From Rhizodiscina lignyota (Eukaryota > Ascomycota > Dothideomycetes > Aulographales > Rhizodiscinaceae), in NCBI GenBank assembly GCA_010015805.1, contig ML978122.1, forward strand, positions 2,080,453 through 2,144,452: 64,000 nucleotides of DNA, written 5' to 3'. Positions 6,847 to 40,435 of this stretch are shown here, one piece after another. The first letter of the stretch is position 1. Every line of letters starts with the position of its first letter. The notes below the pieces were generated by a model that was not told where the DNA came from, ran no database searches, and worked only from the letters and a program-made list of their open reading frames with translations. The position numbers were made by a program, and so were the translations under genes.

Positions 6847-7296
6847 GATTTTACTTTCGCGGGCAAGACGAGGTTAGCCTTGCCCATCTCGCGCGCCATA
6901 GACATTTTAAAAAGATTAAGAGAGGAGTCACCCCAAATTGTAGAAGGCAGGTGGTAGGGGGTTTCAGCATTGGTGAAGTACGAATACGACAGGCCGCCGC
7001 TCCGGACCATCAAGAGGGCTTTTAGTAATTCCTCGGGATCTCGGTGTTACAGTTGATGTACGCATCAGAGGGAGGCAAAAGCTTTCTTAACGGAGTATAA
7101 TTGCTGGATTCTGATTGACAGCCGGATTTGGGGGCCAAATAGGCCTTGGGAGTCTGGAACGTGGTGCAGTGCAGCTCAGGGGGGGTGGCGTCGGTCTACA
7201 GCAGGCTAACCTGATTGGGATGGCGGGGGATACCGGAATATGTCCCAACTTCAAGTTTTATACCACGCAGAATGAGGTGTCTTCATACACATCAGG
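6847..7296. other. divergent intergenic region
   Basis: This lies between the 5' ends of the Zn2Cys6 pseudogene (-) and the HET gene (+). Part of it is G-rich around 7120-7235. No gene was recognised. Confidence 0.4.
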
Positions 7297-9302
7297 ATGA
7301 GCTCCACCGCTAGCAAAACTTGCCCGGAATGCAGGAAGATCAGGTTTGAGTACTTAGAGTCAAGAGACGAAAAGACAATTCGAGAATATTTCACATTCAG
7401 CCAACTTGTGAAGCCAGCTTCAATGGGCTGCCTTTTCTGCGCTTTTGTTCACACGATTATTACTGAAAGGGTAACGAAAAGGAAACGCGATCCTTATCGG
7501 AACATGGAAATGGTGGTAGAATTTATTTCTGGGGTCTCAGCGGATTTTGAGGCCAACATCAGATGTGTATTCTTCCCGCGAAGTCCGGCAGTATTTATGT
7601 CATGGCGGATGCATCAAGAGGAACACACAATGGTCATGATGGGCACCCTTGTTGCCAAAGCAGGTAAGACTTCTTTGATTCTCATATACGAAAAGCTATC
7701 CTCATATACGGACAAAGATGGCCCGGCTGCGAAATTCGTATCAGACAGAGTAGTTGAACCCGACGTAGAAGACGCGATTCAGTTGGCCCAGACATGGATG
7801 AATACCTGCCTCTCTGGACATACCAGATGCTCAGCGAGTGAGGTACCTCTACTTCCAATTAGAGTGGTCGACGTAGAAGTTACTGCTACGCTGAACTGCA
7901 AGCTTCACATCTCTTCTCCTGGCGAACGCAGAAATTATCTTACGCTAAGCTATTGCTTGGGAGTAGGCGAGAAGGGCCATGTCCTTACGCAGAACAATCT
8001 GTCCGAAAAGGAGAGTAGTATTAGCATAGACCTCCTCCCAAAGACCCTACAGGATGCTGTTTTCATAACTCGGAAGTTGCGGCATCGGTACCTTTGGGTA
8101 AGATTTTGCAGGATTCGCTAGAGGATTGGGAGACCGAAGCCGCAAAGATGGGCGACATCTACGCCAATTCAACACTCACTATCGCAGCGGCCAGTGCAGC
8201 AGACGCAAGGCAGGGCATTTTGCTGCCTCGCCCCCCTACATTACCAGAATCACCTCCATTGCAGTTCACTTGCCCCGACGGGAACTCGGGGACAGTATTT
8301 CTTCGGCACACAGATCCTTCAGATGTGGAAGAACCACTGAATCTGCGGGGATGGGCTCTGCAGGAAAGACTTCTCACGCCTCGAACTCTATTTTTCGGAA
8401 CTCACCAGATGACATGGGAATGTCGTGAAACAGTTTTCGCTGAAGGCAAGAGTGACTACAGTGGAATACGATGGTCCGGTAGAAATCCTCTGTCTGATAT
8501 CCATCCATTTTCACAGACGCTGCCTCTCACATCGAGTGAAGTTCTTGCTAGGTGGGAGGAAGTCGTTTCAGACTATACATCACGCAATCTTACACTCGGA
8601 ACCGACAAGCTACCTGCGCTAGCAGGCATCGCGGCTATATTTAAGAGTGCCTTCGGGAATGACGGGTATCTTGCGGGGCTGTGGAAATCGAGTTTGCCTT
8701 GCGGACTCCTCTGGGCTGGTATCGGTAGCGAACATCTGGAGCGCAAACTGTTGCCTTATCGCGCCCCATCCTGGTCTTGGATGTCTGTTGATGGATCTGT
8801 CACGACCATGAGACGGGACTCAAAGGACCCAGTGTGCGCGACAATCATTCATGCAGGTGTAACAGGACGAGCACCACAGAGCCTTACTTCCTGCCTTAGT
8901 GGTAAACTGATTGTGCGGGCCCCGGTGAGAAGACCATCGAAATCCAAGCTCCTGTATAATAGCGCTAATCCTCGTCACAATATACGAGGGTTTTATTTCG
9001 ACGGAGGAGAGAATGACGGGCCCAATGAACCTCTAGAGAAATACAGAGAGCAATCCTGTGGGATTTGTGAATTCGATGACTACGATGAGATGCTTCAAGC
9101 AGACTCAACTCAACTCTTGTGCTTGAGGAAAACATTAAAAAGGGGCCTCATGATCTTACCGGTGGCAGGAACGGATGTATTCCGGCGAGTGGGATATTGC
9201 ACAATTTATGAGGAACCTCTTAAATTTACAATAGAGAAGCCAGAAGACCGGTATGAAGATTTATCTAAGGAGTGGCCAGTCCGGGAAATAAGGCTCGTCT
9301 GA
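7297..9302 (+). pseudogene. HET-domain (heterokaryon incompatibility-type) protein, frame interrupted
   Basis: The N-terminal part (7297-8121) has two CxxC pairs (CPEC, CLFC), as in many fungal HET proteins. It then gives the HET domain entry: RVVDVEV, YLTLSYCLG and KTLQDAVFITRKL. At about 8100 the strongly conserved core after RYLWV is shortened by about ten bases and the frame changes. The second frame resumes at once with ILQDSLEDWETEAAKMGDIY and continues through ANSTLTIAAASAADARQGIL, the RGWALQERLLTPRTLFFG block and a long variable C-terminus to 9302. HET domains mediate self/non-self recognition and cell-death responses after hyphal fusion. The gene looks inactivated at its most conserved point; no splice pair fits. 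Its neighbours give no functional hint. Confidence 0.75.
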
Positions 9303-9769: not shown

Positions 9770-12214
9770 CTAGCGCGACACACTGCCGCTCCTCCGGAAG
9801 GCACTGGTGATAGAACCGTGCCTGGCTTGCTCAAGGCCAGCAGCGACGCTCTTGCTCCTCGCCTGTTCGCTGGCAAGGTTCTGGTCAAAGTGGTAAAGCG
9901 GCTCGAGCTTGGCGTTCTTGTTGCGGAAGATATAGCGCTTAACGAAGTACGGAAGAGAGTGGCGGAGCTGGTACTGCATGTGCTTCGCGGTCGGGACGGC
10001 GAAGACGTAGTCGAGCTCCTCAAGAGTTCGCTGCTTTGTCTCGGGAACCAAGAAGAAGATCATGATGAGTGCGGTAACATTGAGAGCGGCGTAGAAACCG
10101 AACGCGCCGGTGGGCGTCATGGCTGCCACCATGCGGGGCCAGGTGAGACCGAGCACGAAGGCCCAAAAGAGACAGGTCGCGACGGCCCAACTCATTCCGA
10201 CTTCCCTGTGGGAGAGTGGGAAAACCTCTGTAAATGCGTTAAATCTTCGAGCGGCATGAACAGAGAAGGAGAGGATGAGAACATACCAGCAGAGTAAGTG
10301 AATGGCACTGGACCTTCACCAGGGCTGTAGAATGCTGCGAAGAGATAGATGAATGTAGCGACTAGGCCAAGATGCGCTTTATTGTCCGCAGGGATCAAGA
10401 AACAGAGGCCGCAGGCCAGCAGAGTCCAAGCCATGTTGGGAAAAGTGAAGAGCAGGAGAGCGCGCCTCCCAAAGGTGTCAATGGTCCAGACGGCCGGGAA
10501 AGCGAAGACAAAGTTGACAAGACCGAAGCCAAAAGATGCAACCAGGGCATTTGATGCAGTGGCACCGGCCTGCTGGAAGACGGAGGAGCTGTAGAAGGCA
10601 ATGATGTTGATACCACACATCTGTTGGGCGATCATGACGGTAAATGAAGCGAGAGTAGCGCGACGCACACGCGGGATGGTGAAAAGTTCAATGAAGCGGG
10701 TAAGATAGGTGCTTTTTCCGATAATATGAGCCTCCTCGACGAGTTGTGCGTGAACGTAGTACAGATCACGTGCGGCTTGAAGAGGTGTGTTTCGCAGACG
10801 GAGGAGCGACTTGTAGGCATTTTGATAGCGGCCCTGGATCATTGGTTAGCGTTGAATATCTAATTAGGACCTGCAACACATCTGCTTACCTTCTTCATGT
10901 ACCATCTTGGTGATTCGGGACAAAAGAACACACCGAAGACTAGTGGCACAGCTGGAATGAAGGCGGATCCTGGGAGGAAAGAACGTTAGGTGCTTCCTTA
11001 GCCCTCCCAAAATTATGGGACTCACCGAACTGAAGACGCCAGGCAATGGCGCCGGTATTGCGGACCGCGAGATTCGCGCAGAAACCGAGGAAAATGCCAA
11101 ACGCGGTCCAGAGCTGCCAGCACATAACCAGGCCACCTCGGACGGCGGCGGGGACGTTTTCCGCAGCTGAAGAATCATGTTAGTCCGAATAAGAAACAGC
11201 GTAATCAAAGTATTCAATATTTACCGTATATTGGGACCGTGCTAGCCTTGCTGCCCATGCCAATGCCGAGTAACAAACGCGTGATGAACAGTTGATACCA
11301 TGTCTACAGGTGCGTGATGTTAGCCAGTATATTCAAGAGCTTAGGAAATTTGCGAGTGACATTGGATTTCCCTACAGGAACCTGCAGCGGTAATGATATG
11401 AAAATTGAAACGGAGTATTTACCTGGGAGAAGCCAGAACCAATAACTGAGAGGAGGCAGAAGACGGCAGAGAAGAAGATGGTACCTCGACGACCAAAGTA
11501 ATTGTTCAATGGGTCTAAGAAGGCATTCTCGTTAGTTTCTCGATGCATTCAGACATTGAGAATGGCCATCTTACCAGAGATCCAGGCACCAAGAAATGCA
11601 GAGGCCAAGTATGGAGCGCCATTGATCAGTCCCACAAGCCACAGGTTGTGGATATAGTCCGGGTTTGGAACACTGTTGGTAGGAGCGTCGAGGTATTGAG
11701 CGTCGCTGATTCCGAAAGCTTGTGGGAAGGACAAGTTCGCGCCATTAGAGCCAGTCTGATCCCAGCCTTGGACAGCCGCGCCAATAGAGCAGAGGATGAC
11801 TGTGAAGTACATGGCCTTTGGCTGGCGCCACTTGTGAAGGACCTCATTTTGGAGAGCCTCCTTCTCCACATCCGTCAAGCCCTCAACCTCCTCAAAGCGT
11901 GCGGGATCCTGAGCGCAAAGAGCACCCTTCTTGAGAATATCGGTGATATCTGTCATTTCACGCTCCTGTGCGAAGTCCTCGACCTGCTGCAAGAGAATTT
12001 GCTTGGGGATGCCAGCCAATGGGTTCTTGATCCTGCACATTAACACTTATTAGCAAATGCAAACACATAGCGCATTATTATGAGTCAGTGTGTACCTGGC
12101 TTCCTTGTTACTGTTGAGGTTGACCTCATCGTGACTGAAACCCTTCTCGTTGTAGGCAGTGTCGCCATTCTCAAAGGTCTCGTTCTGGACCTTCTTCTCC
12201 TCAATGTCCGACAT
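9770..12214 (-). CDS. MFS sugar/inositol-type transporter
   Basis: I reconstruct eight exons: 12214-12096, 12032-11575, 11514-11423, 11303-11225, 11166-11026, 10969-10890, 10833-10287 and 10227-9770. All are in phase and give about 657 residues. Family signatures are present: a long acidic cytosolic N-terminus, [16 protein letters not shown] in helix 1, [11 protein letters not shown] after helix 2, RLLLGIGMG, the PESPRWY(M) motif after helix 6, [14 protein letters not shown] in helix 7, DTFGRR, and [13 protein letters not shown] after helix 12. A Lys/Arg- and Ser-rich tail follows. The [11 protein letters not shown] signature is typical of the fungal myo-inositol/polyol-like branch of the sugar porters. 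It would sit in the plasma membrane as a proton symporter; the exact substrate is not readable. Confidence 0.92.
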
Positions 12215-25751: not shown

Positions 25752-26738
25752 ATTGTTTGTGGATGCAAATGTTGTTTTGATGCGCGAGATGAATCTGGAC
25801 CTCGAGGTAACCTTTAGAGCGATATCTAGCTTGGGCCGCGGCTACTCTAACCAAAAATTGTTAAGGCGGCCTGGGCAATCGACCAATGCGGTTATCGTGC
25901 CGCCGGCGAAAATCTGGAGCTCGCTGAGATCCTCCATTTCGCGGGGGTCGACCAAGCTTTACATTCCATTAAATCGTACTCAAGTTACGCTTAAACTCAG
26001 CGCGGGAGGCTCCTTGATCAGAAGCCTCACATGGCAGATTTTCTAACGTCTTCTATCCTTGGCTCAACTACAAAGTCTTGACATTTATCAGCTACGAGCG
26101 AGCGGAGCTTACTAGTACAGACATTTCCCGGATTTGACACAGCTCATTCCCCACCATTAGAGATCCCCATGGGGTCCTTAAAGCGATATTCACCCATCTC
26201 CCAAAGTTCTATGAGATGTGTGTTCCTGGCCGACAAGTGCTATCGGTGCATTTGATGTCACACTTTACGGGCATTGCAGAGGCTCTACATACCCGTTATC
26301 CAGGCATACGTGACTTATCGCTACGGCAAGAAGAAGAACTTTGCACCGATGGCTTTTCGAATCGAACTGCCTCACACACATGCCGCATGATGGAGTGATA
26401 GTCACCTTGAAATTCGTGGTGTGAGAGGAGTGTCGGTCCATGATTACACGTGGCGAAACCAAACGGCGAAAGTGCGGCTCGGGCTTTGCCTGTCCTGCCC
26501 CATCCAGATCGTAATCATATCAGCGCATTCCCGATATGCAGAATGCCGCAAACCTCGAATGGACTATGGACATGCCGCTTTCATACGGAAGAAGCACTGG
26601 GCGGCAATCTAAACCATATCGAAAGACTACAAAAAGGTAAGTACTTCTACTATTTCCTTCTTGCACTTCTTTCAGGCTATCCCCGCATTCCTTCTTCAGT
26701 TTCTCTACTTCCGAAGCTAGTTCCGAAGCTAGAACAAA
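25752..26738. other. divergent intergenic region, no gene seen
   Basis: A 987-base region between the EF-hand gene (-) and the aspartate kinase gene (+). Short frames on both strands look random. It should carry both promoters. No known amino-acid-control site was identified with confidence. Confidence 0.4.
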
Positions 26739-28465
26739 ATGAGTCCCGCTATCCCCTGCAAGAGAGAATGGGTTGTGCAGAAGTATGGAGGCACGAGTTT
26801 GGGGAAGCTCCTCGATACCATTTGCGGTGAAATCATTCCCGCCTTTTCATACCAGTTCAACGTAGCCGTCATATGTTCCGCCATTTCCGGAAAGTCGAAG
26901 GCCTTAGGCACCACTAGCTTGCTCATTCAATGCATATCCGCCATCTCTTCATCAACAGAAGGTGCCGAAAACGAATTGAACGACACACTGGATCTTTTGA
27001 AGGACAACCATCTTAACATCATCAACTCCATTGCATCAGGGCTGAATCCAGATGCCCAGCAGATATGTCAACGGGCCGCTAACGCGATATCGAAGGAGTG
27101 CGAGCAGATGCGTGCGTTCATGCTGGCAGCACAAACTGTTGGCGAGCTTTCACCTCGTTCAAGAGATCGAATATTGGCACTTGGAGAAAGGCTTGCTTGT
27201 TCGATAGTCGCCACCACACTTCAAGTCAAGGGCGTTCCTGCGCAGCCCGTGTTTCTTGATAATCTCGTCGAAGAAACCTTCGGCCCATCGGTAGCTACCC
27301 AGCGAGACGCGTTCGAAACCCTCGGAGCAGACGTATACCCACTTTTATCACAACAAATTGCACGGAAAATCCAAGACTGCGATGGCGCTATTCCCATTAT
27401 TACAGGTTTCTTCGGCATCGTGCCGAACTCATTGATAGCTACCGTTGGCCGAGGGTACTCCGACTTCTGCGCAGCCCTCTGCGCAGTCGGCTTAGGGGCT
27501 CGCGAACTCCAGATATGGAAAGAAGTTGATGGAATCTTCACGGCAGATCCGAGGAAGATTCCGTCCGCTCGTTTATTACCGGCAGTAACATTCGAAGAAG
27601 CTGCCGAGTTGACATACTACGGTAGCGAAGTCGTTCATCCGATGGCGGTGGATCAAATACGTCACGCCGGTATTCGCTTGCAGCTGAAGAATGTATTCAA
27701 TCCTGCTGGAGCTGGCACTAGAATCTATCCAACGAGCACTCCATTGCCGTCCCCTCCAACCTCGGAAGCCCCCACTCCTCGGAGTACATCGCCTTCACGA
27801 GCTTCAGCGCCGCCTCTGGCATGCATGCTGATCGGCTATCACGGAAATCTGGAAAATCGTCGTACTCCAACAGCAGTTACTGTCAAGGACCCTATCACGG
27901 TTGTGAATGTCCTGTGCAACCAAAAGCGAAAGTCTTCCACGTTCCTTCTCAACGTTCTGGAGCAAGTAGCCAAGCACAATCTGGATATCGACCTTGTCAC
28001 CAGCAGTGAAAAGAGCGTCAGCTTTGCACTGGAGAATGTCGACGACAGGCAGCGGCTACGGAGGCTCATCACCGTGCTGGAGGACTTCGGCTGTGTCACT
28101 GTGTCCGAGGACCGAGCGATAATATCAGTGGTCGGCCACAAGATGAGGAACATGGTCGGAGTATCAAGTACGTTTGTGATTGATAACATTTCGGGACATA
28201 ACTGACCATTTCAGGCGAGATCCTCTCCGCGTTAGCAGCGGCCAAAATCAACGTTCATATGATAAGCCAAGGTGCCAGCGAAATCAATATCTCGTAAGTC
28301 ACATATTTTCCGCTTAGATTTCGACCACTAACGGGTATTCATAGTGCGGTCGTGCGCAAGGATCAAGCACTACTCGCGATGGAGGTCATTCATCAAAATG
28401 TCTTAAAGATTCCATCAAGGACCGAAGTAGAGAATAACTTCATCAAGGGTCCGTGGCTGTATTAG
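26739..28465 (+). CDS. HOM3: aspartate kinase (Hom3/Fub3 type)
   Basis: There are three exons, 26739-28167, 28215-28293 and 28345-28465; 542 residues. KYGGTSLGK near residue 15 is the aspartokinase phosphate-binding start. Later kinase blocks include FFGIVPNSLIATVGRGYSDF, EVDGIFTADPRK and TYYGSEVVHPMAVDQI. Two ACT domains follow: one around TFLLNVLEQVAKHNLDIDLV, the other split by the introns (SEILSALAAAKINVHMISQG). The enzyme phosphorylates aspartate, the first step toward homoserine, threonine and methionine; the ACT domains normally give threonine feedback. The gene starts a run with homoserine O-acetyltransferase, nitrilase, a Zn2Cys6 factor and an O-acetylhomoserine lyase. This suggests either linked methionine genes or a dedicated precursor copy, as FUB3 is for fusaric acid. 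Confidence 0.93.
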
Positions 28466-29202
28466 TACCTTTGCGGTAAAGCGTCGTGAGAAAAGCGTCC
28501 TTCTGTATGATTTCATTAGCATGGCATTTGGCGCGATGGATGAGATATGTGGGAAATTTCTATTTCAGCTGCGTTACATATGCACGCAAAGTTTCGCGGT
28601 CAAAGCGCAGGTGTCGGGGAACACTTTAGAGTAGAGTCGAGCTGCTTACGCACAATTGTTGCGCGCTCTCATGTAAATTACCTTAAATATAAGGAAAATG
28701 ACCTTTGCAAAGTACGTCGCAGAGATAAATCAACTATCGTTCTCAGTGTTTGTTGATAAGAATACCGTGGATGGGAGGGAAGTGCTAGCAAAGCTCGCGA
28801 GGAAACAAGTTTTGCTGGCCAAGTCGTCAGGCTCGAGCAGCTTCCGCGAATACTCAGACTATTAGCGAGTGCTATGTGCAATTCGCGGAAGCCCGTCATT
28901 GACGCACCGCCTACTGCCCTCGAGCTCTTCTTCGGGAAACATTGAGCGGCTCTATCAACATGTGCGGATACTTGCGGGAAACTGGGTCGAAGAAATGGGC
29001 AACTCTCTTTTATTCCTAGCACACGGTTGGTGAAAATTTACCGTGATATATGGATTAGCCTTTCTAACAGGACCTTTCCTGCAGTCTAATTCTTCGTCCA
29101 TAAAGGTGATGACCTCTTGTAACTCCTTGACCCCAAATACGAAAAGCACAACACGATATGTACACAAGGTAACAGAGACAAAACTCTTTAATACAGGTTG
29201 AA
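28466..29202. other. convergent intergenic region, no gene seen
   Basis: This lies between the 3' ends of the aspartate kinase (+) and homoserine O-acetyltransferase (-) genes. Frames reach 114 codons but show no domain. It probably contains only 3' UTRs. Confidence 0.45.
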
Positions 29203-30673
29203 TCATTCCTCCATTTCGCCGACCATGCTCGCCCCATTTGCGTCAATATGAAGGTCAGCATTTCCGGCTACAAGTGGCTCACCCTCGTATATCTGAGGAT
29301 GCTTGTTCTGTAAATGCTCGATCATCAATCGGTCCAAGTCCTCAAAGTCAAGCAGAAAGCCGTCGTGTCCGTTTGTCGATGAGAGCATGTGAAGTCTCGC
29401 GTCCGGTAGTGCATTGGCTAACTGTCTCTGCTCCTCTGGTGTGAAGAGAATGTCAGATTCAACGCCGACGACTAACGCGCCTGGCTCGACCGCTGAGAGA
29501 ACGGATTCGAAGTCGTCCTCAGTAGGGCATTCAGCACCATTCGAATTAGTTGCCCGGCCTCGACATATGTCGTGAGAGTCCATCTTGTTCAAAAGATGCA
29601 GATAACAGTTCGCGTCGAATCTGGAAAGGAATTTGGAGCCTTGATAACCAAGATAGCCTTGAACGGAGAAATGCGGATGTAGTTTCCGTTTATGGGAATC
29701 GGAGTTGCTGCTATTGACAGCTACGTTGCTCACTGAACTGTGAGAATGATTTGACTGCTTCGACTTCTTCGTGACTGTCTTGTTAGGTTTCCGTCCAAAT
29801 CGCGCCTCAAAGCTCGTGGATGATCGATAGGTCAACATAGCAATCATGCGAGCCGCGGCCAATCCAGAGGCAGGCTGGCTTGAAGGATGTGGCTCGTAGT
29901 GCCCGCCGCGGAAGAGAGAGTCGTTCTGTATACATTGACGTTGTGTTTCGGCCCAGGCAATTCCCCATGCGCTATGAGAGAGCGATGTAGCGATCGTAAC
30001 GAGGGTCTTAACATAGTGTGGAGGCGTGCAAAGTCCCCATTCCAGAGCCGTCATGCCTCCCATTGAGCCGCCAACGACTGCAGCTACAGACGAGACACCA
30101 AGGGCGTCAAGGACAAGCTTTTGAGCACTGGTATTTCTGTTAACGACTGACATTGTAGATTCCTTGGAAACTGATCAGGTGGCATGCTTACTTCACATCA
30201 TCTCTGGCAGTAGTTGCAGGGAAGTCAGCTCCATACGGTTTGCTTGTCGCAGGGTTGATGTTGAGAGAAGAACTGCTCCCATACGGCGATCCGAGGCAGT
30301 TTCCACAAAAGATGAAGAACCTTGTCGGGTCCAGTGTCTTGCCAGGACCGAAGAGAGGATGCCACCAGTCAACCAGGTCGCTGCTTCCCGTCAAAGCATG
30401 ACACACGACGAGGACGTTATCCCTCTTGTCATTTAACTTCCCCCATGTCTTGTACGCAATCTGGCAGTTTGAAAGTGTCTCGCCAGATTCTAGGGTGAAG
30501 GAAGGGATGACTGCGAACTTCTGGTTACGGATGAGGCGAGAGTAATGATGCTCCTGTGCGAGACTGGATTCAAGACGAGCCTCTGCATAGTCTTGCGACG
30601 TGAGACGCATCGATAATGTTCGGTTTGACAATTCTTGGACCGTGGTCAATGGAGATTGTAGGGAGGAAGACAT
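29203..30673 (-). CDS. MET2: homoserine O-acetyltransferase (Met2/Fub5 type)
   Basis: There are two exons, 30673-30192 and 30136-29203, with a 55-base intron; 471 residues. It has the alpha/beta-hydrolase acyltransferase fold of MetX/Met2: LESGETLSNCQIAYKTWGKL, VLVVCHALTGSSD, WWHPLFGPGKTLD, NCLGSPYGSSS, and the nucleophile elbow GGSMGGM with Ser185. The Asp strand is VVGVESDILFTPEEQ and the His block is TNGHDGFLLDFEDL. A polar insertion rich in Lys, Ser and Asn (about 29690-29790) is usual in fungal members. It acetylates homoserine from acetyl-CoA, giving O-acetylhomoserine, the substrate of the lyase encoded at 36975-38585. A Met 12 codons upstream could be used instead. The gene is divergent from the nitrilase gene. 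Confidence 0.93.
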
Positions 30674-31032
30674 GTTGCTAACTTGCGTCGTCGACGATGA
30701 GAGATACACTAGGATGCAGAAGCGATGTGTTCATTTTCTGATAGTAACAACCAGTGGTTTTACCTTTATCAGTAGTCGAAGTACCAATATCGGTATCTAA
30801 TGCAGTTCAGAAACCTTGTTGAAGTTTGCGGCATGGTGCGGCACGTTTTCTACGTTCGGGCTTTGCTTTCTGACGTGCATTCGATCCTTGAACCCGCAAA
30901 ATCGAGAACGTCAACAAACAGCTTCGGCGAAGATAACGTCGCAATGCCGCATAACTCCTTATTTGGTAGCTTCTTAAGCAGCCGTAAGGGTCTAATGTCT
31001 CTGGGCTGATCAGCACGCGATAAAGAGAAATC
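30674..31032. promoter_or_regulatory. shared promoter region of MET2-like and nitrilase genes
   Basis: About 360 bases separate the two start codons, which point outward. The short spacing implies shared or coupled regulation. I could not identify a specific binding site. Confidence 0.5.
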
Positions 31033-32615
31033 ATGTCTGAAGGCGCAAACGGGTTCGTGAAAGTCGCTGCTGTTCAGGCTGCACCTATCTCATTTGATTT
31101 GCCAAAGTCCCTGCAGAAGCTATCTGGACTGTCTGCAGAGGCAGCATCGAAGGGTGCTCAAATCGTTGTGTTTCCGTGAGGAGCTGTTCTCAGCCCTGAC
31201 GCAAGATCAAACGGCTGATACCCAAGTAGGGAAGGATTCCTAACAGCTTATCCATGGAGATATGCCTTTGATGCAACGATTGGTGCACGAGAGCCTCGTG
31301 GTTTGTGCAGACATTATTTTCCAAGATATTCGCATTCTGATGTACGTTCGCAGGTCGAAAGTGGTATGCACGGTATTATGAATCGGCTGTAGGCATCCCG
31401 TCGCCCGAATGCGATTTTCTCGCAGAAGTCGCAAAGAGCAATCAGATCTATTTATCAGTTGGTATCATCGAAAAGGATCAAGGGTGAGTCATGCCTTTGT
31501 CCGATTGTTCCGATGGTCCCGCCAAGCCCATGCAACGATCGTGTCAGAGTAGATCGAATGGTTCCAGAGAAATGAAATCAACAGGATATGGGTCCACATC
31601 AATAGCTTATTCCTGTAACTTTGCTAACGTGTTCTTCGTGTGCGTAGGACGCTATATTGTACAGCACTGCTGCTGGGAAAGGATGGCACTATTCTGTCTC
31701 GGCACCGTAAAGTGAGTAATCGAGAACTCTGAAATTGCGATGGAAGATTTCGCTGACTGTTGACACAGTTGATCCCAACAGCAGCAGAACGCCTTGTCTG
31801 GGGTCGTGGTGCTGGCGATGGATTGAATGTAGTGCAGACGGAACTCGGAAAGATTGGAGGATTAATTTGGTGAGTCGCACGACCAAGCCTGACCACGAAC
31901 GATGACTCTAATATGAGAACTGTAAAGCTGGGAGAATTATATGCCAGCTGCAAGATTAGCACTATATCAGCAAGGTATCGAGTAAGTGAATACGAATCAA
32001 AAGATGCAAATTGTGCGTTAATTCGGAGACCTGCAGGATATATTTAGCGCCCAATGCGGATGATCTTCCCGAGTGGACTGCTACAATGAAGCATATTGCG
32101 AAAGAGGGAAGATGCTTCGTGGTGAATGTCAATCAATTCTGCAAGGTCGGCAAGAACTTCGAATGGAGGAGAAAATCACTGACGATGTGCTCAGGTCTCG
32201 GATTTCCCCTCTGATTACCCTCCGTTTACGGAAGATCACTACGACCGTAAACCAGACGGATCTAAATGGCAGCCGGATGACATCCTAAGCCACGGTGGAT
32301 CATGTGTAGTGGGACCGTTGGGGACCTTTCTCGCGGAGCCAGTATGGGATAGAGAAGAGATCGTCTACGCAACTCTCCGATCAATGGATATAGTTGAAGC
32401 ACGAGTAAGTTGCCCATGTACATTCCAACGCAAAGACCTGCTGACCAAGTGAAAGCTCGATTTTGACCCTGTTGGAAGCTATGCACGACCCGACGTATTG
32501 TAAGTTGTCATGTTCGCTTCGAATTGGATGCGGATGCATTGGTTAACAGCGTATTAGCTCCTTGACAGTGAATACAAAGCCAGGAGTCAATGTTCGTTTC
32601 GATGGGAAGCTGTAG
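31033..32615 (+). CDS. nitrilase (carbon-nitrogen hydrolase)
   Basis: I reconstruct ten exons: 31033-31175, 31230-31300, 31354-31483, 31648-31711, 31769-31869, 31928-31981, 32037-32145, 32195-32404, 32456-32499 and 32558-32615. Every junction keeps phase, giving 327 residues, the usual nitrilase length. The catalytic triad is complete: Glu49 in [10 protein letters not shown], Lys136 in [16 protein letters not shown], and Cys170 in GLICWENYMP, whose codon is split by intron 5. Further family blocks are [29 protein letters not shown], and [20 protein letters not shown] near the end. Nitrilases convert nitriles to acids plus ammonia, or in some members to amides. Nine introns in under 1.6 kb is unusually many for this window. 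The position between the acetyltransferase and regulator genes makes it a likely member of the same pathway. Confidence 0.9.
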
Positions 32616-33410
32616 TAGAATCGGAGTTTGAGCTGGACGATGATGCATAGACTTAAGGTACGGAGTATGGAGTATTGTAGGCGGTTAGCATACGTTGAAT
32701 ACAATATCTACAAAGCTACTCAGGCCTTGTGCATGCCTTCAAAACTTTTGCAAGTAGACATGCAGATACCATTGGTAGGGCTGGAGTAGACGAGTCTTCG
32801 CGCTGGGGAACGCCAGGACGCGTGACGCGTGCTACGGATCGCGAAATGGCGCATCTTTGTTTCCCCGATGTCCGAAGGTTCATTTTTGGTAGCGAGTGAA
32901 ACTCCAACGACCTCGGGAGTTTTTGTCCGCTCAATGAGCATATTCTCTATGCCACAGCAAGCCGAATGAAACATTCTTTCTACGCCTCGCATGGTGATCC
33001 GGATCTATCATTTCAAAGTCGTGTGGATCTTGTTGAACTTTTTCGGCTTCCTGCTACACGATTTAACCGACGCTACGCCGTTGCGTGAACAGCGCCAACC
33101 GTAGGTTGCACGCCTGTCTCAATTGTCTCTCTAGTTCTTCTCTATGTGGTCTGAATATCATCTGATTCATTTTGCCTCGTTTGATGGAGCTTAGCGGAGG
33201 GAGTGTGCAGTCCTATGGGTGAGCGATAAGGCCGCAGGGATCGTGTGATTGCGGGCCGCATTGCTTTTCTTATCGGCATCGTTGGCATCTCACTGTCGCA
33301 CGACACCTCCAGTCAATTGAGCAGCGGCCTTTTCGGCGTTCATGAGGACAGAGTCTGTCTTTATGTCGTAATTGCGCCCTTTCGTACTCAACAGGCGGAA
33401 AGTAAGCAAA
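32616..33410. other. intergenic region upstream of the cluster regulator
   Basis: About 795 bases between the nitrilase end and the regulator start, both on +. No supported gene. It should contain the regulator's promoter. Confidence 0.4.
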
Positions 33411-36056
33411 ATGCAAACGACTAAGAGGAAGTTCGCAACTCCACCCGTGAAGTCCGCTTGTACAGCATGGTACGAACACCGCGCCCTAAGGATTACCGAC
33501 TTTAGAAGCTGACGTCCCGTCTCTTTGCAGTAGAGCATCCAGGACTCGCTGTGATGGAAAAGAAAAGTGTACACCGGTATGACTGAACTCCACAACTAAT
33601 TTCCGCTATAAATTGGCTAACACACAAGTCAATAGTGTGAGAACAAAGGCAGAGAGTGTGTTTATATTCCAAGCAGAAGAGGAGGACCAAGGATATCACG
33701 GAGAAAGAGAGCTCAATTGTTAGAGCAATCGTCGTTGACCGAGCGTACGATTTACGAAGAAGATAACGATACAACTTCGTCGCAACGAGGAGGCACTGCG
33801 CACTCGACAGATTTGTGGCCAAGTGCAGTGCATTTCTCTGAGAGTGTGCTTGCTATGGTCAATCCAGGCGCCGGCCTAACGCGACAGAACAACTCGCAAG
33901 ATTTATTTCAGGATTCCGATATGATCTTTGATAGTATATTTAATCTTCCAACTCCGCCGTCGAGCGCCCCAGAATCGAATTGTCAAGAGGATCTTCCTAA
34001 ACCGACCACGCCGGTGGTCCGAACATATGCAAATGATATAGAAATGTAAGACTCCACGACAATACGACTCTAGAATCCAAGCGGCTAACTCCTACTGCTA
34101 CAAGGTTGAACGGATACTATATCTTCATACACCAATACTTCCCAATTCTACCTCCTCCAGTATCTTCCACAACGATCGTTGACAACTCTATCGCTCGCTC
34201 TCAGGATGAGTTGGATGATGGCGATGTAACTTTTTGTCCTTCTTCGCCGCTGAGTCTGGCGATAGCTGCTATCTTAGCATTGATTCCTCACGATCAATGC
34301 CCGGAGCCTTCTAGCGAGGACGCCATCGTATTTCGGAGGCGTTACTCACACTTCCTTGTTCAATCCGCTATGGAGAGCATTGATATCGAATCTGAAATGC
34401 CCGGGTCGTCTACGTCTCCTGATAAAGCGCTTTCTGAGGACCACGCTGGATGCCCCCGTGCTCCGTTTCACCCGATGGTTCCAGTTGAGCTAGAAAGCGT
34501 AATTGCGTTGGCTTTGTTAAGCATATATGAATACTCTCAGCGGGGAAATATAGCCAGAATGCGGAATAGAGCCGGGCAGGCCCTAGTTAATGCCATGGAT
34601 TTGTGCTTGCACTCAGCCGGCGAAGAGTACGACCACTTTGAAGAAGCAAGAAGGCGAGCCTGGTGGATGACGGTGAGCATATCCCATGGCAAATGCAAAG
34701 TAATAAGTACAATATGCGCTGATTCAAGTGATGACAGTACGTGTGTGTTTGTCAAGGAAGTATCTATTCAAGCACGGTTAGTTTCATCTCACACATCGAA
34801 TATCGTAATCGGCTCCCCATCTTTCGGGCCAGAGCCACTGTTCTCTACCAGCTTTTGGTGGCTGCTACGCCGTGCCCTAACTCTACACAATATTAAACTC
34901 GCTCGAACGAAACAGTTTGCTGAGTGCAGAAGTGTACTTCTTCGCCAGTCGCTCTAAAACTTGCCTTCCGTTTAGAAAGAGTAAAACTGACTATATCTAC
35001 AGCCGCCGATAATATCCGTGCTAGACCCGTCATTTACCAGACAATATCCCTCCATTGCAGCCGATGCGGAGGCCTGGCCGTTCTTTATCGAATCACAGCA
35101 AACAATATTACGAGCGACTCAGTTCGTTGCAGATCTCAACAAGACGTTGGAAAAGGGCGAAGATCTCCAGATTATACGTACACGCATGCAGGAGCTGGAA
35201 TCTGATCTGGTGCCACTGGTCGCCAAAGCGGATGCGTTTGCCCAAGGCATTCCGAGCTTCAACCCGATCGATTCCGAGGAAGAAATCGTTGCGGAAACGT
35301 TGAAAGTGATGGCCCGAATCAAGATCAACAGGTATGTTCCGTATTCAGGTACGAATTTATTTCTAACGTCACCGAAGCGCTCGAATTAAGCTACATCGAT
35401 ATTGCGCATTTTTCGATCACCCGATCTTCAGCCGCAAGCACTGCGATCTTAAACCTGTTCCACTCCCAGGATCAGTTGGCCGAGGCCGAACAGCCTCTAT
35501 CTCCTCAATAGGATGCGGTTGCAGTGGATCCTTCGGCATGATGATCGAATCATCGCCGGGAGGCGGAATCCCCTCAAAGGACTTGCCCACGTTTTCAAAC
35601 GATGACGATGCACTTGAGCAGTTTCCTTTCAGCAGCCGAACTTCGCAGAAGATCTGCCTCAAAGCGGCTCTGAATATCGTTCAGTCGTTTGAGGCTTTGC
35701 CCTATCCGTTTGTAGTCTCAAACAAGCAAATTCCTCGTACAATGCCCTCCATGTCTTGTTGTGCGATGCAATCGAGCTATGCTCTTTTGATGTTGCGCCA
35801 GAAGACGTTGTCAGAGCAGAGGTGTTCGAATGACGTATACGTTCAGACATTGTTTGTCAAGATTCACAGGGCGCTGCAGTCCATTGCAGGGACGTTGGAC
35901 AACTACGCGATAGCTGCAGAAGCAATAGCTGGAATGCGAGGTGTGTATACTCCACAAGGTCTTGGGTTGAAGCTGTGGAAAGCGTCCGACAATGGAGAAG
36001 CTGATTCGCTTTCAGATCAAATACGAGAGTCGATACAAGTTCACTTTGGCGGTTGA
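33411..36056 (+). CDS. Zn2Cys6 transcription factor in the amino-acid enzyme cluster
   Basis: I reconstruct seven exons: 33411-33469, 33531-33576, 33636-34045, 34105-34672, 34738-34776, 35003-35331 and 35378-36056; 709 residues. The first three exons assemble a full Zn2Cys6 cluster: KSACTACRASRTRCDGKEKC, then TPCENKGREC, followed by the linker VYIPSRRGGPRISRRKR. The middle-homology region gives HQYFPILPPP, RRRAWWMT and YVCVCQGSIYSS. The text then resumes in PPIISVLDPSFTRQYPSIAADAEAWPFFI after a 226-base intron. Later blocks are ARIKLHRYCAFFDHPIF and QKICLKAALNIVQSFEALP. It should be nuclear and bind CGG-type half sites. Being flanked by the nitrilase and the O-acetylhomoserine lyase, it is the natural candidate regulator of this block, comparable in position to FUB10/FUB12. 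Confidence 0.88.
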
Positions 36057-36974
36057 AGCCGCAAGCGAGTAGAGAGGCCTTGGCTATTGGCAAGGGTGGA
36101 GGCAGAGAAGGAGCGGCATTACTGCATCGAATGCGGTGAAAGCAGTCAGTGCGAACAGTGGTGCAGCCCCTTTGAACTTGGTGCCCCTTCGAGTACACAT
36201 CTTAGGTGCTGCGAACACGTGCGCCCAACAAGCTGGCAGTCTTAACTTTGTATTATTACTGGTATTAGCGCGTTGCATGCAAGCGGCAAATAACAGCGGT
36301 ATTGGACGCGGAAATCCGTGGATTTGGTGGAAGCACTGCAAAGTACAGGAAACGCTCTGGAACTCTTGGAATCGGCGGCAGTGTTCTTCAGGATGATGGC
36401 GGCTGCCGGAGTGGGATAGCGATAGGGGAGCGAGCATGCTGGTGGCATCCAGTTTGAATTAGGTTTCCGCTCCCCCGCATTTGCGGCGATGTTCAGATAG
36501 AAACGATTGTAGATAAACTTGCAGCTCTTTCGCGCGAGTGGCATACTTGGACAAAATACAACGAACACCTGAGCAAGTTCAACGCCGCATCAACACAAAG
36601 CCCTTGCAAGCCGCTTTACATCTCCCCCACACATGAGAACGTCTCTTATCAGTGCCCTGTCTATTTCTTCCTGTATGTGGGATCCAATTGTATGGGATTA
36701 CGGTGTGCTAGGATCCGCCGGGATCTCTCGGTGTTTGAACTATTATCTGCGGCACAAGGATCCAATGATGACCGCAAGGTACATGGTTACCCAAGTTGGC
36801 AAGGTCGTCTAGAAGCTATGTTCTGGAATTGATAGTTCACAAGTATATCAATGGCAGTTTAGAATGTTTATTTCCTGCCTCATTGTCATTGCAAGATATC
36901 ATTTCCATTAGCCACCGCTACATCCTTTCATTGAATTGACATCTTACGACATCTCTTTATTTTCGACCAGCAAA
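36057..36974. other. intergenic region upstream of the O-acetylhomoserine lyase gene
   Basis: About 918 bases with short frames on both strands, none convincing. It should contain the 3' flank of the regulator and the promoter of the lyase gene. Confidence 0.4.
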
Positions 36975-38585
36975 ATGACTATCTCCGGTTCTCTCGCCAA
37001 TGTCACCAAGTAAGTCACCCCAATCAAAATAATAGCCTCCGCTTTCTGCTGCAATGCCAGAAGGTCCGGCCTTTCAATTTATTTAGAGCCTTTTCTAATG
37101 TGTTGAATTAGGCCCCCCGCTTTCTCCACAATCTCTCTTCATGGTGGTCAAGAGCCAGATCCTGTAAACGGATCCCGTGCTGTGCCATTGTTCCAAACAT
37201 GCGCATACAACTTCACCGACGCCGCCGATGGTGCAAGCAAGTTCGCCTGGTCGAAGGATGGATATGTATACACTCGCATGGGCAACCCAACAAATTCAGT
37301 CTTTGAGACTCGTATGGCGATGCTCGAGGGAGGCGTCGGTGCAGTTGCAACAGCTTCTGGCCATGCTGCACAATTCATGGCGCTTACCAACTGCTGCGCA
37401 CCTGGACAGAACTTTGTCAGCACAAGCTGGCTTTATGGCGGCACTTACAACCAATTCCGTGTCTACATGAAGAAGTTCAACATCAACGTCAAGTGGGTTG
37501 TGGGCAATGACCCAGCCGACATTGACCAGACGATCGACGAGAACACACGATGCGTTTACATCGAGACGATTTCAAATCCGAAGCACAGCGTCCCAGATAT
37601 CACTGCGATCGCCGAAGTTTGCCATAAGCACGGGATACCTCTCATCGTCGATAACACTTTCGGAATGGGCGGTTATATTGCAAGGCCGATCCAGCTTGGT
37701 GCCGATATCGTCACACACTCTTGCACGAAGTGGATTGGTGGCCATGGTACTAGTATGGGTGGTATTGTCATCGACGGTGGCCACTTTGACTGGTCTGCTT
37801 CTGGAAAGTTCCCAGAATTCACAGAGCCGGCGGAAGGCTACCACGGCATGCGCTTCTGGGAAACATATGGCACTCGCGCTCTCTCAGCGAAGCTCAGGAT
37901 GGACTCTATGCGCGACCTTGGTCCGTGTATGAGTCCTTTCAACGCCTGGCTCTTCCTTCAAGGTCTTGAGACATTGTCGCTTCGAGGCAAGCGGCATTGC
38001 GAGACTACTCTGCAACTTGCAGAGTGGCTCGAGGCTCACCCGTCGGTCAATTGGGTTCTGTATCCAGGTCTGAAGTCCCATCCAGACTATGCACACGCAC
38101 AGAAGACGATGCCGAATGGACAAGGTGGTGTGTTGACATTCGGTGTGGTAAGTCCAATTCATTCGATCCCTTAGAGAGGGTCGCTCTGACAAAATCTTGT
38201 ACAGGCCGGCAGCATCGAGCAAGTTCGCGCAGTTGTCGATAACCTCAAGCTTTGCAGCCATCTCGCCAACGTCGGTGACGCGAAGACGCTCATCATCCAT
38301 CCTTGGGTGACAACACACCAACAGCTCCCAGATGAGGAAAAGATCAAGGGCGGTGTAACACCAGACCTTATCCGCATTAGCGTAGGATTGGAAGAGTTTG
38401 AAGACATTCAGCATGACTTTGAACAAGCCTTTGAAGCCGCTGGCCTACCAGTTGCGGACAAGACAAAGCAAGACCCATTCCAGGCGGCTATGAACTTGGT
38501 TGCGGGTGGCTTCATGAAGAACAAGGCGACCGGCGCACCAAGACCAGGGACTGACGGGACTGTGGTTGAGAATGGGGCGCATTAA
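36975..38585 (+). CDS. MET17: O-acetylhomoserine (thiol)-lyase family PLP enzyme (Met17/Fub7 type)
   Basis: There are three exons, 36975-37009, 37112-38147 and 38205-38585; 483 residues. Cys/Met-metabolism PLP family motifs are clear: [74 protein letters not shown] (Asp for the PLP nitrogen), and [10 protein letters not shown] with the Schiff-base Lys at about residue 218. The late block is [22 protein letters not shown]. Canonical enzymes use sulfide to make homocysteine. The fusaric acid homologue Fub7 uses the same vinylglycine-type chemistry to attach a carbon nucleophile. Several normally constant positions look unusual ([21 protein letters not shown]), and the C-terminus is about 30 residues long beyond the domain. 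A specialised paralogue is plausible; the acceptor is unknown. Confidence 0.92.
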
Positions 38586-39430
38586 AGACGACGATGAATT
38601 GATGTTAACTAATTTCATGACCTGTGAATACGGAGTATGCAGAGGGCTCTCGGAACGAAAGGGATTTCGGAAGAGGCGTTGGGTTAATTTCGGAAATCTT
38701 CGACTAATTTTCGGTTGATAGTCTGCCTCCAAATCTGTCCATTTGACTCTGAAGAGTTGCAACAAATCGTTTCCCGTCTCACTCACACGCTCTGCTGAAC
38801 CTCTTCGTGAAGCCACGCCATGCATGCTCTCTGATGCACCATTGTCTGCCCTGCATTACCTTAGAGAAGCCACAGAAGCAGAGCGATGATATATAAAAGC
38901 GGACAAGCCCGTGAGCCGGAAAATCAAGCGACCAGGGACCTTTCGTCAGCCGTGCCGGGCGGCTCCATCCGTTTCACGGTGCTCAATCACGCAGCACTTC
39001 GGATGGACTGCACTGAATATGGAAAGCATTTCGACGCTTCTACGGAACTTAGCAGTTGGCTAGTACCTGGTCTTCGCTTTCTCCGCGCTCAGCACTCTCA
39101 CTACGTCTTTAGAGTCTTCAACTCAAGGTGGAGAAATTTATCATTGGCTGTAGATCGGAACCTGAAATGGCAAGTACTGGTAAGCCGCCTGCTTGTGCAC
39201 GTATCGGCGAGAGAGATTGGCTTTGGAATTGAACCATCTTCTTGCGACAAGAAGTGTCCTGATTGGACGGACGCAGAGACGATGCTTCGGTATAACTCTT
39301 CAGTCCCACTCCAAGCGTCGTGGAGAGCTGAAAGGCTTCATCTTTTGAAGTGAGTATAAGAATTCATCCATTCCCAAGTTCTCTGTGCAAACCATCTCTC
39401 TGCTTGACCAAACAAGTCTCGAATATCATC
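38586..39430. other. intergenic region upstream of the SDR gene
   Basis: It contains a 155-codon open frame (38886-39353, +) with no recognisable domain, ending just before the SDR start. I treat it as promoter and leader rather than a gene. Confidence 0.4.
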
Positions 39431-40435
39431 ATGGCTCTTTCTGGAAAAGTTTCTCTAGTTACTGGCGGCGCGAAGAATCTCGGTGCACAGATTGCTCTCG
39501 AGCTAGCTGCTGTTGGATCTGACCTTGCGTTGCATTACAATTCAGCTAAAACGAAGGAGGATGCCGATAAGCTTGCTGAAGAATTGACGAGGAAGTACCC
39601 GAAGATCAGCGTCAAGTTCTACGACGGCGACCTCACTACCGCAGCTGCTGTCGACAAGCTATTCGCCGATGTCCTTCATGATTTTGGCAAGATCGATATT
39701 GTCGTCAACACGGTCGGAATGGTTCTGAAGAAGTCGATTCTCGACATCAGCGAGGAAGAGTACGACAAGATGTTCGCCATCAATTCGAAGGCTGCCTTCT
39801 TCATCCTCAAAGCTGGAGCGAAGAATGTGACGGATGGAGGCAAGCTGATCACTATTGTCACATCATTGCTTGCTGCTTTCACTGGGCTATACACGAGCTA
39901 TGCTGGATCGAAAGCGCCGGTTGAGCATTTTACTCGCGGTGTGTGCAAGGAACTGCAGCCCAGAGGTGTCAGTGTGAACGCCATTGCTCCTGGTCCCATG
40001 GATACACGTAAGTTTTAACTTTCTTAGATCGCGCTTGATTACATTAGCCAGGAGCACTCGCAGAGGCAATTGTTTAATCAGGCACTGTATTGACTCTATG
40101 GTGTGTTTGCTTTGCGGAGACTTCGGCCATGGCCATACGCTCCACCAAGTACCGGTATACTCTTGGCAGAAGTCAAGTCATCTGCGTTGCACAGAACACT
40201 TCCCATGACTTCTAACTTCGCCCTGGCACAGTGTGTCCAACTTGGCTGACCAGACATAGCGTTCTTTTACCCCCAGGAAGGAGCTGATGCTGTCGCTTTC
40301 CACAAAAGTCAAGGCATGGGCGGGCGTCTTACGGACATCAAGGACATCGCGCCAATTGTGCGCTTCCTCTGTACTGAAGGTAGTTGGATTACAGGGCAGA
40401 CTATCTTTGCAAATGGTGGCTACACCACACGTTAA
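39431..40435 (+). CDS. short-chain dehydrogenase/reductase
   Basis: There are two exons, 39431-40007 and 40260-40435; 250 residues, the classical SDR length. The NAD(P)-binding motif is TGGAKNLGAQIA (TGxxxxxG) near residue 13. NTVGM stands where NAG is usual. ITIVTSLLA supplies the catalytic Ser and SYAGSK gives Tyr-x-x-x-Lys. The end reads PMDTPFFYPQEG and WITGQTIFANGGYTTR, a standard SDR C-terminus that defines the second exon. The joining intron is 252 bases, much longer than neighbours. It is probably a cytosolic NADPH-dependent ketoreductase or dehydrogenase. It lies on the same strand as the lyase gene and may be the last member of the cluster. Substrate unknown. Confidence 0.88.

Follow-up and report, generated by a model that had tools for sequence, protein, structure and literature searches.

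Why would a fungus keep, side by side, genes for an aspartate kinase (AK), a homoserine O-acetyltransferase (HAT), a nitrilase, a Zn2Cys6 transcription factor, an O-acetylhomoserine (OAH) (thiol)-lyase-family enzyme and a short-chain dehydrogenase/reductase (SDR)? We address this question for Rhizodiscina lignyota in a stretch of 64,000 nucleotides (the window; C2:2080453-2144452), taken from a genome of 33.4 Mb in 29 contigs that is fungal as judged from its genes. The six genes occupy positions 26739-40435 of the window. Our best single reading, to which we would give somewhat less than an even chance, is that this block is a cyanide detoxification or assimilation cluster, in which aspartate would be turned into OAH, OAH plus hydrogen cyanide (HCN) into gamma-cyano-alpha-aminobutyrate, and the latter into glutamate or glutamine. 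Genes for precursor supply, for a pyridoxal phosphate (PLP)-dependent lyase and for a nitrilase are co-located here, as OAH-dependent cyanide assimilation requires; because the supply of OAH, an OAH lyase and a NIT4-type nitrilase stand together, this route is the simplest reading of the block.

All six genes lie in the order given above, as the first-pass annotation of this DNA had described them, with complete spliced frames. All are intact and intron-bearing, and the catalytic motifs of the enzymes are intact. Splice sites were picked by eye, from genomic sequence alone; the family assignments are the same in Pfam and NCBIfam and were mostly made on single-exon pieces, with full models used for the nitrilase and the transcription factor. 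The AK matches PF00696 at 119 bits and TIGR00657 at 253 bits (cut-off 208.7). One exon of the HAT matches MetX models under their cut-offs; the best PDB match of this enzyme is CefG (2vat, 292 bits), and its motifs GGSMGG, VESD and GHDGF are intact. The OAH lyase matches PF01053 at 345 bits and, in the PDB, Met17 at 511 bits and FUB7 at 503 bits, with its PLP-lysine motif TKWIGG and the other family motifs intact. The Zn2Cys6 factor matches PF00172 at 23.2 bits (cut-off 21) and PF04082 at 22.2 bits, just below the cut-off of 23, and the SDR matches PF13561 and PF00106 as well as PDB 5thk (290 bits). By our own arithmetic, which assumes uniform placement, the chance that an AK, a HAT and an OAH sulfhydrylase would all land in a stretch of about 12 kb is roughly 4e-6.

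The first-pass annotation had suggested a search for second HOM3-, MET2- and MET17-type genes and had named their absence among the things that would refute its view; the host has them, and this main refutation fails. Genome searches place AK at two loci (the block and contig C12), HAT at two (the block and C4, plus one weak 30-bit match) and OAH sulfhydrylase at two (the block and C8, with further, weaker members of the family on C5, C6, C17 and C15); a genome search with the Zn2Cys6 factor gave no second full-length copy. Because second AK, HAT and OAH sulfhydrylase genes exist elsewhere, we reject the idea that the block is simply a set of housekeeping genes. Families and motifs are alike in the two sets of copies, and identities to the block are 38% for the AK on C12, 41% for the HAT on C4 and 55% for the lyase on C8. 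These other copies are spread over three contigs, whereas the diverged ones are no more than 12 kb apart. In matches to the PDB, the HAT on C4 scores 372 bits with CefG versus 292 for the block copy; against an archaeal AK the values are 214 bits for the C12 gene and 183 for the block gene, and against yeast Met17 they are 585 for the lyase on C8 and 511 for that of the block. The copies on C12, C4 and C8 thus look canonical, and those of the block look like the diverged ones. As a separate observation, the block AK carries a Pro/Ser/Thr-rich stretch at about residues 332-359, between its kinase and ACT parts; the corresponding linker of the C12 copy is shorter and different.

Judged by its sequence, the block nitrilase is of the NIT4 type. 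It matches PF00795 at 193.5 bits as a full model, has the catalytic residues E49, K136 and C170, and is 44.5% identical to Arabidopsis NIT4 (AtNIT4), which is its best PDB match (298 bits; the next scores 161 and the cyanide hydratase 9ofa 108). A tree whose 23 rows include 14 of the 80 bacterial loci described below places the block gene in a 13-row clade with NIT4 (99/99), within an 18-row NIT4-type group (97/96); the order inside the clade is unsure, with several weak forks. The block enzyme keeps the catalytic E/K/E/C residues and the lid pair R95-D317 (NIT4 numbering). Nitrilase-type genes are numerous in this host. Six others were compared, besides which C4 has one more weak match, and four of the six lack the lid pair, which is kept by the genes L025 and L027. 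The pair is also kept in all 80 fetched bacterial relatives, an agreement to be expected of sequences picked by likeness to the query. For the host nitrilase L026, the fit to a cyanide hydratase (267 bits) is about as good as that to a different nitrilase (263 bits). NIT4 positions 169 and 224 were considered as class markers and left unused, as they vary within the clade. Nitrilases of the NIT4 type hydrolyse beta-cyanoalanine, and the apparent membership of the block enzyme in this class therefore suggests a nitrile intermediate in the pathway. A passage in PMC6637149 reports that an R95T change in AtNIT4 abolishes activity on beta-cyanoalanine, and the excerpted part of PMC7503981 describes two purified fungal NIT4-type nitrilases, relatives of the plant nitrilases, whose top activity was on beta-cyanoalanine.

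In the pathway that we propose, the AK and HAT copies of the block would supply OAH, with the aspartate-semialdehyde and homoserine dehydrogenase steps provided by housekeeping genes. The OAH-lyase paralogue would swap the gamma-acetoxy group for cyanide to give gamma-cyano-alpha-aminobutyrate, which is the homologue of beta-cyanoalanine longer by one carbon, and the NIT4-type nitrilase would convert this compound to ammonia and glutamate, glutamine or both. The Zn2Cys6 factor would turn the gene set on, the SDR may be a bystander, and the net effect would be that HCN is detoxified and its nitrogen and carbon assimilated. The fuller version of this proposal, that both the carbon and the nitrogen of HCN are routed into glutamate via OAH by diverged copies of methionine-pathway enzymes and a NIT4-type nitrilase under a dedicated Zn2Cys6 regulator, is a tentative one to which we give well under an even chance. 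The enzyme families and the adjacency of the genes are what we see; co-regulation, cyanide as the nucleophile, the product and the direction of flux are what we infer. A bacterial counterpart for the central step has been reported: according to a portion of PMC9317851, a Bacillus has an OAH sulfhydrylase that forms gamma-cyano-alpha-aminobutyrate, and a table entry excerpted from PMC13257105 names bacteria for the reaction of OAH with cyanide.

The lyase is also where descent can be compared with the fusaric acid (FUB) cluster, since the first-pass annotation had seen in the block a Fub3/Fub5/Fub7-like trio. Our lyase tree comprised 19 rows (the block gene, the C8 copy, Met17, FUB7, 12 bacterial best-match rows and 3 outgroup rows). 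The block gene, Met17, the C8 copy and FUB7 form one group (100/100), inside which the C8 copy pairs with FUB7 (99/95), Met17 joins next (93/89) and the block gene is outermost, on a long branch and with an unusual residue composition that drew a program warning. In agreement with the tree, FUB7 (PDB 8erb) scores 692 bits with the C8 copy versus 503 bits with the block lyase. Orthology of the block lyase to FUB7 is thus not supported by these sequences, and for the lyase, the one member of the trio that was compared, the claim of FUB-like descent falls away. The broader suggestion of a precursor-supply plus gamma-replacement module with its own regulator fares better, and is a reasonable frame in view of the extra copies, even though the lyase shows no special kinship to FUB7. 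The FUB-like view is in this sense partly supported, being right in architecture and not in kinship, with the nitrilase changing the likely chemistry. Of 108 columns that hardly vary among 15 relatives, the block lyase keeps 95; six of its 13 departures lie in residues 31-55. We take these residues to belong to the arm that extends to the active site of the neighbouring subunit. Five other rows, examined as controls, have 2, 8, 2, 10 and 3 departures and FUB7 has 7, so that the count for the block lyase is suggestive only as a sign of divergence. Two departures of FUB7, at columns 34 and 42, fall in the N-terminal stretch; the block lyase also differs at column 42, outside its 13. We note that the block lyase extends about 47 residues beyond its Met17/FUB7 match and that the C8 copy is tailed too. 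Viral contigs searched with one exon of the OAH lyase gave no relative.

The promoter regions bear on co-regulation. Upstream of the AK gene, the HAT-nitrilase pair, the transcription factor gene and the lyase gene, the top 6-mers are GCGGCA and GCCGCA, with 12 occurrences each in 3,050 bases where about 2 are expected. TGCCGCA occurs six times in these four regions, whereas the remainder of the window has 3 copies in 49,260 bases and other host loci have 19 in 82,418 bases; the word occurs neither in the convergent gap between AK and HAT nor in the region upstream of the SDR gene. The choice of four regions, with the SDR region omitted, was made after the counts had been seen. Only the 6-mers are unusual, and mildly so; the motifs give weak support to co-regulation of the AK, HAT, nitrilase, transcription factor and lyase genes, and their counts are mild evidence against membership of the SDR. 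Several other candidates were discarded. Enrichment of 7-mers failed with a larger background (TGCCGCA had p 1.7e-5, uncorrected for the number of 7-mers, and in a control about 14 of 300 random sets, a fraction of 0.047, reached p 1.5e-7). The exact 8-mer TGCGGCAT is found 6 times in the window versus 2.7 expected, with 6 of 100 shuffles as high, and with one mismatch TGCGGCAT is found 66 times versus 60.5 expected (21 of 100 shuffles). The direct repeat TGCGGCA-N(0-12)-TGCGGCA is not specific to the block: the genome has 23 instances of it, at loci L146-L157 and elsewhere, against 4 of a backwards control, and one instance is found between the HAT and nitrilase genes.

A number of observations weigh against a cyanide pathway. 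The neighbouring nitrilase is the one feature that points to cyanide as the nucleophile, and the host has two more NIT4-type nitrilases, L025 (C2:1649592) and L027 (C1:2382325), which are 68% identical to each other. A passage in PMC6214922 describes plant NIT4 as highly specific for beta-cyanoalanine; in the literature that we searched, we found no report of a NIT4 enzyme accepting gamma-cyano-alpha-aminobutyrate. Whole cells with one fungal enzyme favoured fumaronitrile, with beta-cyanoalanine below 8%, according to the excerpt of PMC6928751. The 13 column departures of the block lyase are not far above the controls. As to the motifs, GCGGCA and GCCGCA overlap within TGCCGCA and so are not independent; among random four-segment sets, 27 of 2000 equalled the 6-mer result and 396 of 2000 the 7-mer result, and with the SDR region included the counts rise to 165 and 790 of 2000. 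Nor do bacterial neighbourhoods repeat the arrangement. A profile search of contigs with a nitrilase/NIT4 alignment gave at least 579 related bacterial stretches, and we probed the 80 best of them by tblastn (E 1e-10) with the block AK, HAT and OAH lyase and the other host copies; among these 80 NIT4-type loci, many of them on short contigs, none had a MetX or an AK match, and one had a partial match to a Cys/Met-metabolism PLP enzyme, at a contig edge. We also found no fungal cluster of this make-up described among the papers listed in our literature searches, which left subscription papers mostly outside.

The same genes can be read in other ways. One is that the cluster makes some other gamma-substituted amino acid, the lyase joining OAH to a carbon or nitrogen nucleophile as Fub7 does and the nitrilase and SDR tailoring a nitrile or carbonyl group. 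We consider this rather unlikely. The precursor-supply logic is that of FUB3/FUB5/FUB7 in the excerpted gene list of PMC10967133, the SDR is adjacent and intact, and the divergence of the lyase includes its N-terminal stretch; yet the block lyase lies off the FUB7 branch, and the same list contains no nitrilase. In addition, a Pfam scan of 28 of the 56 stop-to-stop open reading frames (ORFs) of at least 150 amino acids in the window, together with the full models of the transcription factor and nitrilase, revealed no polyketide synthase (PKS), nonribosomal peptide synthetase (NRPS)-like or flavin mononucleotide (FMN) oxidase gene, as the first-pass annotation had remarked of the PKS and NRPS-like genes, and among the scanned ORFs within the block no major facilitator superfamily (MFS) gene, other scaffold enzyme or transporter was recognised.

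A NIT4-type nitrilase transcribed divergently from HAT would be left unexplained if the block were instead an auxiliary sulfur or methionine module, in which a spare AK, HAT and homocysteine synthase would serve under a local regulator during sulfur stress and the nitrilase would act on an unrelated nitrile. It is true that AK, HAT and the lyase all belong to the route from aspartate to homocysteine, and that the lyase keeps its family motifs and most of its near-invariant columns (95 of 108); C8, however, already carries another gene of the OAH sulfhydrylase type, and we regard such a module as unlikely. Quite improbable, in our estimation, is a partly accidental neighbourhood in which AK, HAT and OAH lyase are one unit and the nitrilase and/or the SDR are independent of it. 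The lack of motif copies upstream of the SDR gene, the weakness of the motif evidence for the remaining genes and the abundance of nitrilase-type genes in the host would fit this account, whereas the position of the nitrilase and transcription factor genes between HAT and the OAH lyase, and the single 359-bp upstream region common to HAT and the nitrilase, argue against it. We continue to prefer a cyanide-assimilation cluster, tentatively and with the SDR as a doubtful member.

Features of the gene block and its upstream regions (positions in the window)
Feature	Position	Strand	Details
AK paralogue with C-terminal ACT-type region and Pro/Ser/Thr-rich linker	26739-28465	+	2 introns, 542 aa
HAT paralogue, MET2/CefG-like	29203-30673	-	1 intron, 471 aa
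NIT4-type nitrilase (by sequence)	31033-32616	+	9 introns, 327 aa
Zn2Cys6 transcription factor	33411-36056	+	6 introns, 709 aa
OAH (thiol)-lyase-family PLP enzyme, diverged paralogue	36975-38585	+	2 introns, 483 aa
SDR; membership of the functional unit unproven	39431-40435	+	1 intron, 250 aa
Upstream region of AK	25760-26738		TGCGGC at 26382, 26473, 26545
Common upstream region of HAT and nitrilase (359 bp, genes divergent)	30674-31032		TGCGGC at 30827, 30837, 30946
Upstream region of Zn2Cys6 gene	32617-33410		TGCGGC at 33231, 33255
Upstream region of OAH lyase	36057-36974		TGCGGC at 36058, 36482, 36584, 36748

The block is flanked by an EF-hand gene on the left and a MoeA-type molybdopterin gene on the right; Pfam matches on the left flank include EF-hand, Clr2 and, just under its cut-off, TRM5/TYW2. 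In G+C content the block (0.48-0.50) resembles the remaining window (0.48-0.54). The scanned ORFs revealed no additional gene within the block, but this set leaves out a 162-aa ORF at 38865-39353 in the gap between lyase and SDR, and the ORFs listed for the AK-HAT gap are of at most 114 aa. Further to the left, a HET-domain gene (7276-9302) has its domain split across the overlapping frames 7276-8121 and 8025-9302, which may be due to an intron or a frameshift, or to decay of the gene, and matches to sugar-transporter-type MFS proteins lie on the minus strand at 9773-10845, about 16 kb from the block.

The FUB cluster resembles the block in bringing together an extra AK (FUB3), HAT (FUB5) and OAH-lyase-family PLP enzyme (FUB7) with Zn2Cys6 regulators (FUB10 and FUB12), and the gene list excerpted from PMC10967133, which supplies these assignments, names no aspartate-semialdehyde or homoserine dehydrogenase gene. 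It differs in that the block has a NIT4-type nitrilase and an SDR, in that the block lyase stands apart from FUB7, and in its PKS, NRPS-like, FMN oxidase and MFS genes, which we did not recognise in the block among the ORFs scanned. If our reading is right, methionine-pathway copies have been clustered here for something other than a polyketide-derived alkaloid, which would caution against calling every clustered trio of AK, HAT and OAH lyase FUB-like.

The detoxification systems of plants and bacteria that use NIT4 share with the block a nitrilase of this type and, as we propose, the principle that a PLP enzyme fixes cyanide as an amino nitrile that is then hydrolysed. Those systems use cysteine or O-acetylserine with beta-cyanoalanine synthase and yield aspartate and asparagine, whereas the block would use OAH with gamma-replacement and its product would be glutamate or glutamine. 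Such a pathway would give fungi an extra route against cyanide, beyond cyanide hydratase and beta-cyanoalanine-type handling. There is an old observation, recounted in a passage of PMC6928751 and for which the enzymes were not known, of a fungus in which cyanide was incorporated into 4-amino-4-cyanobutyrate and this was hydrolysed to glutamate. That compound is an isomer of gamma-cyano-alpha-aminobutyrate and was made from an aldehyde and ammonia, and the old fungal route and the one proposed here would therefore differ. The bacterial system that joins OAH to cyanide shares the enzyme family and the proposed reaction with the block; what would set the block apart is that the enzyme here appears to be a diverged fungal paralogue, clustered with its own precursor supply, a nitrilase and a regulator.

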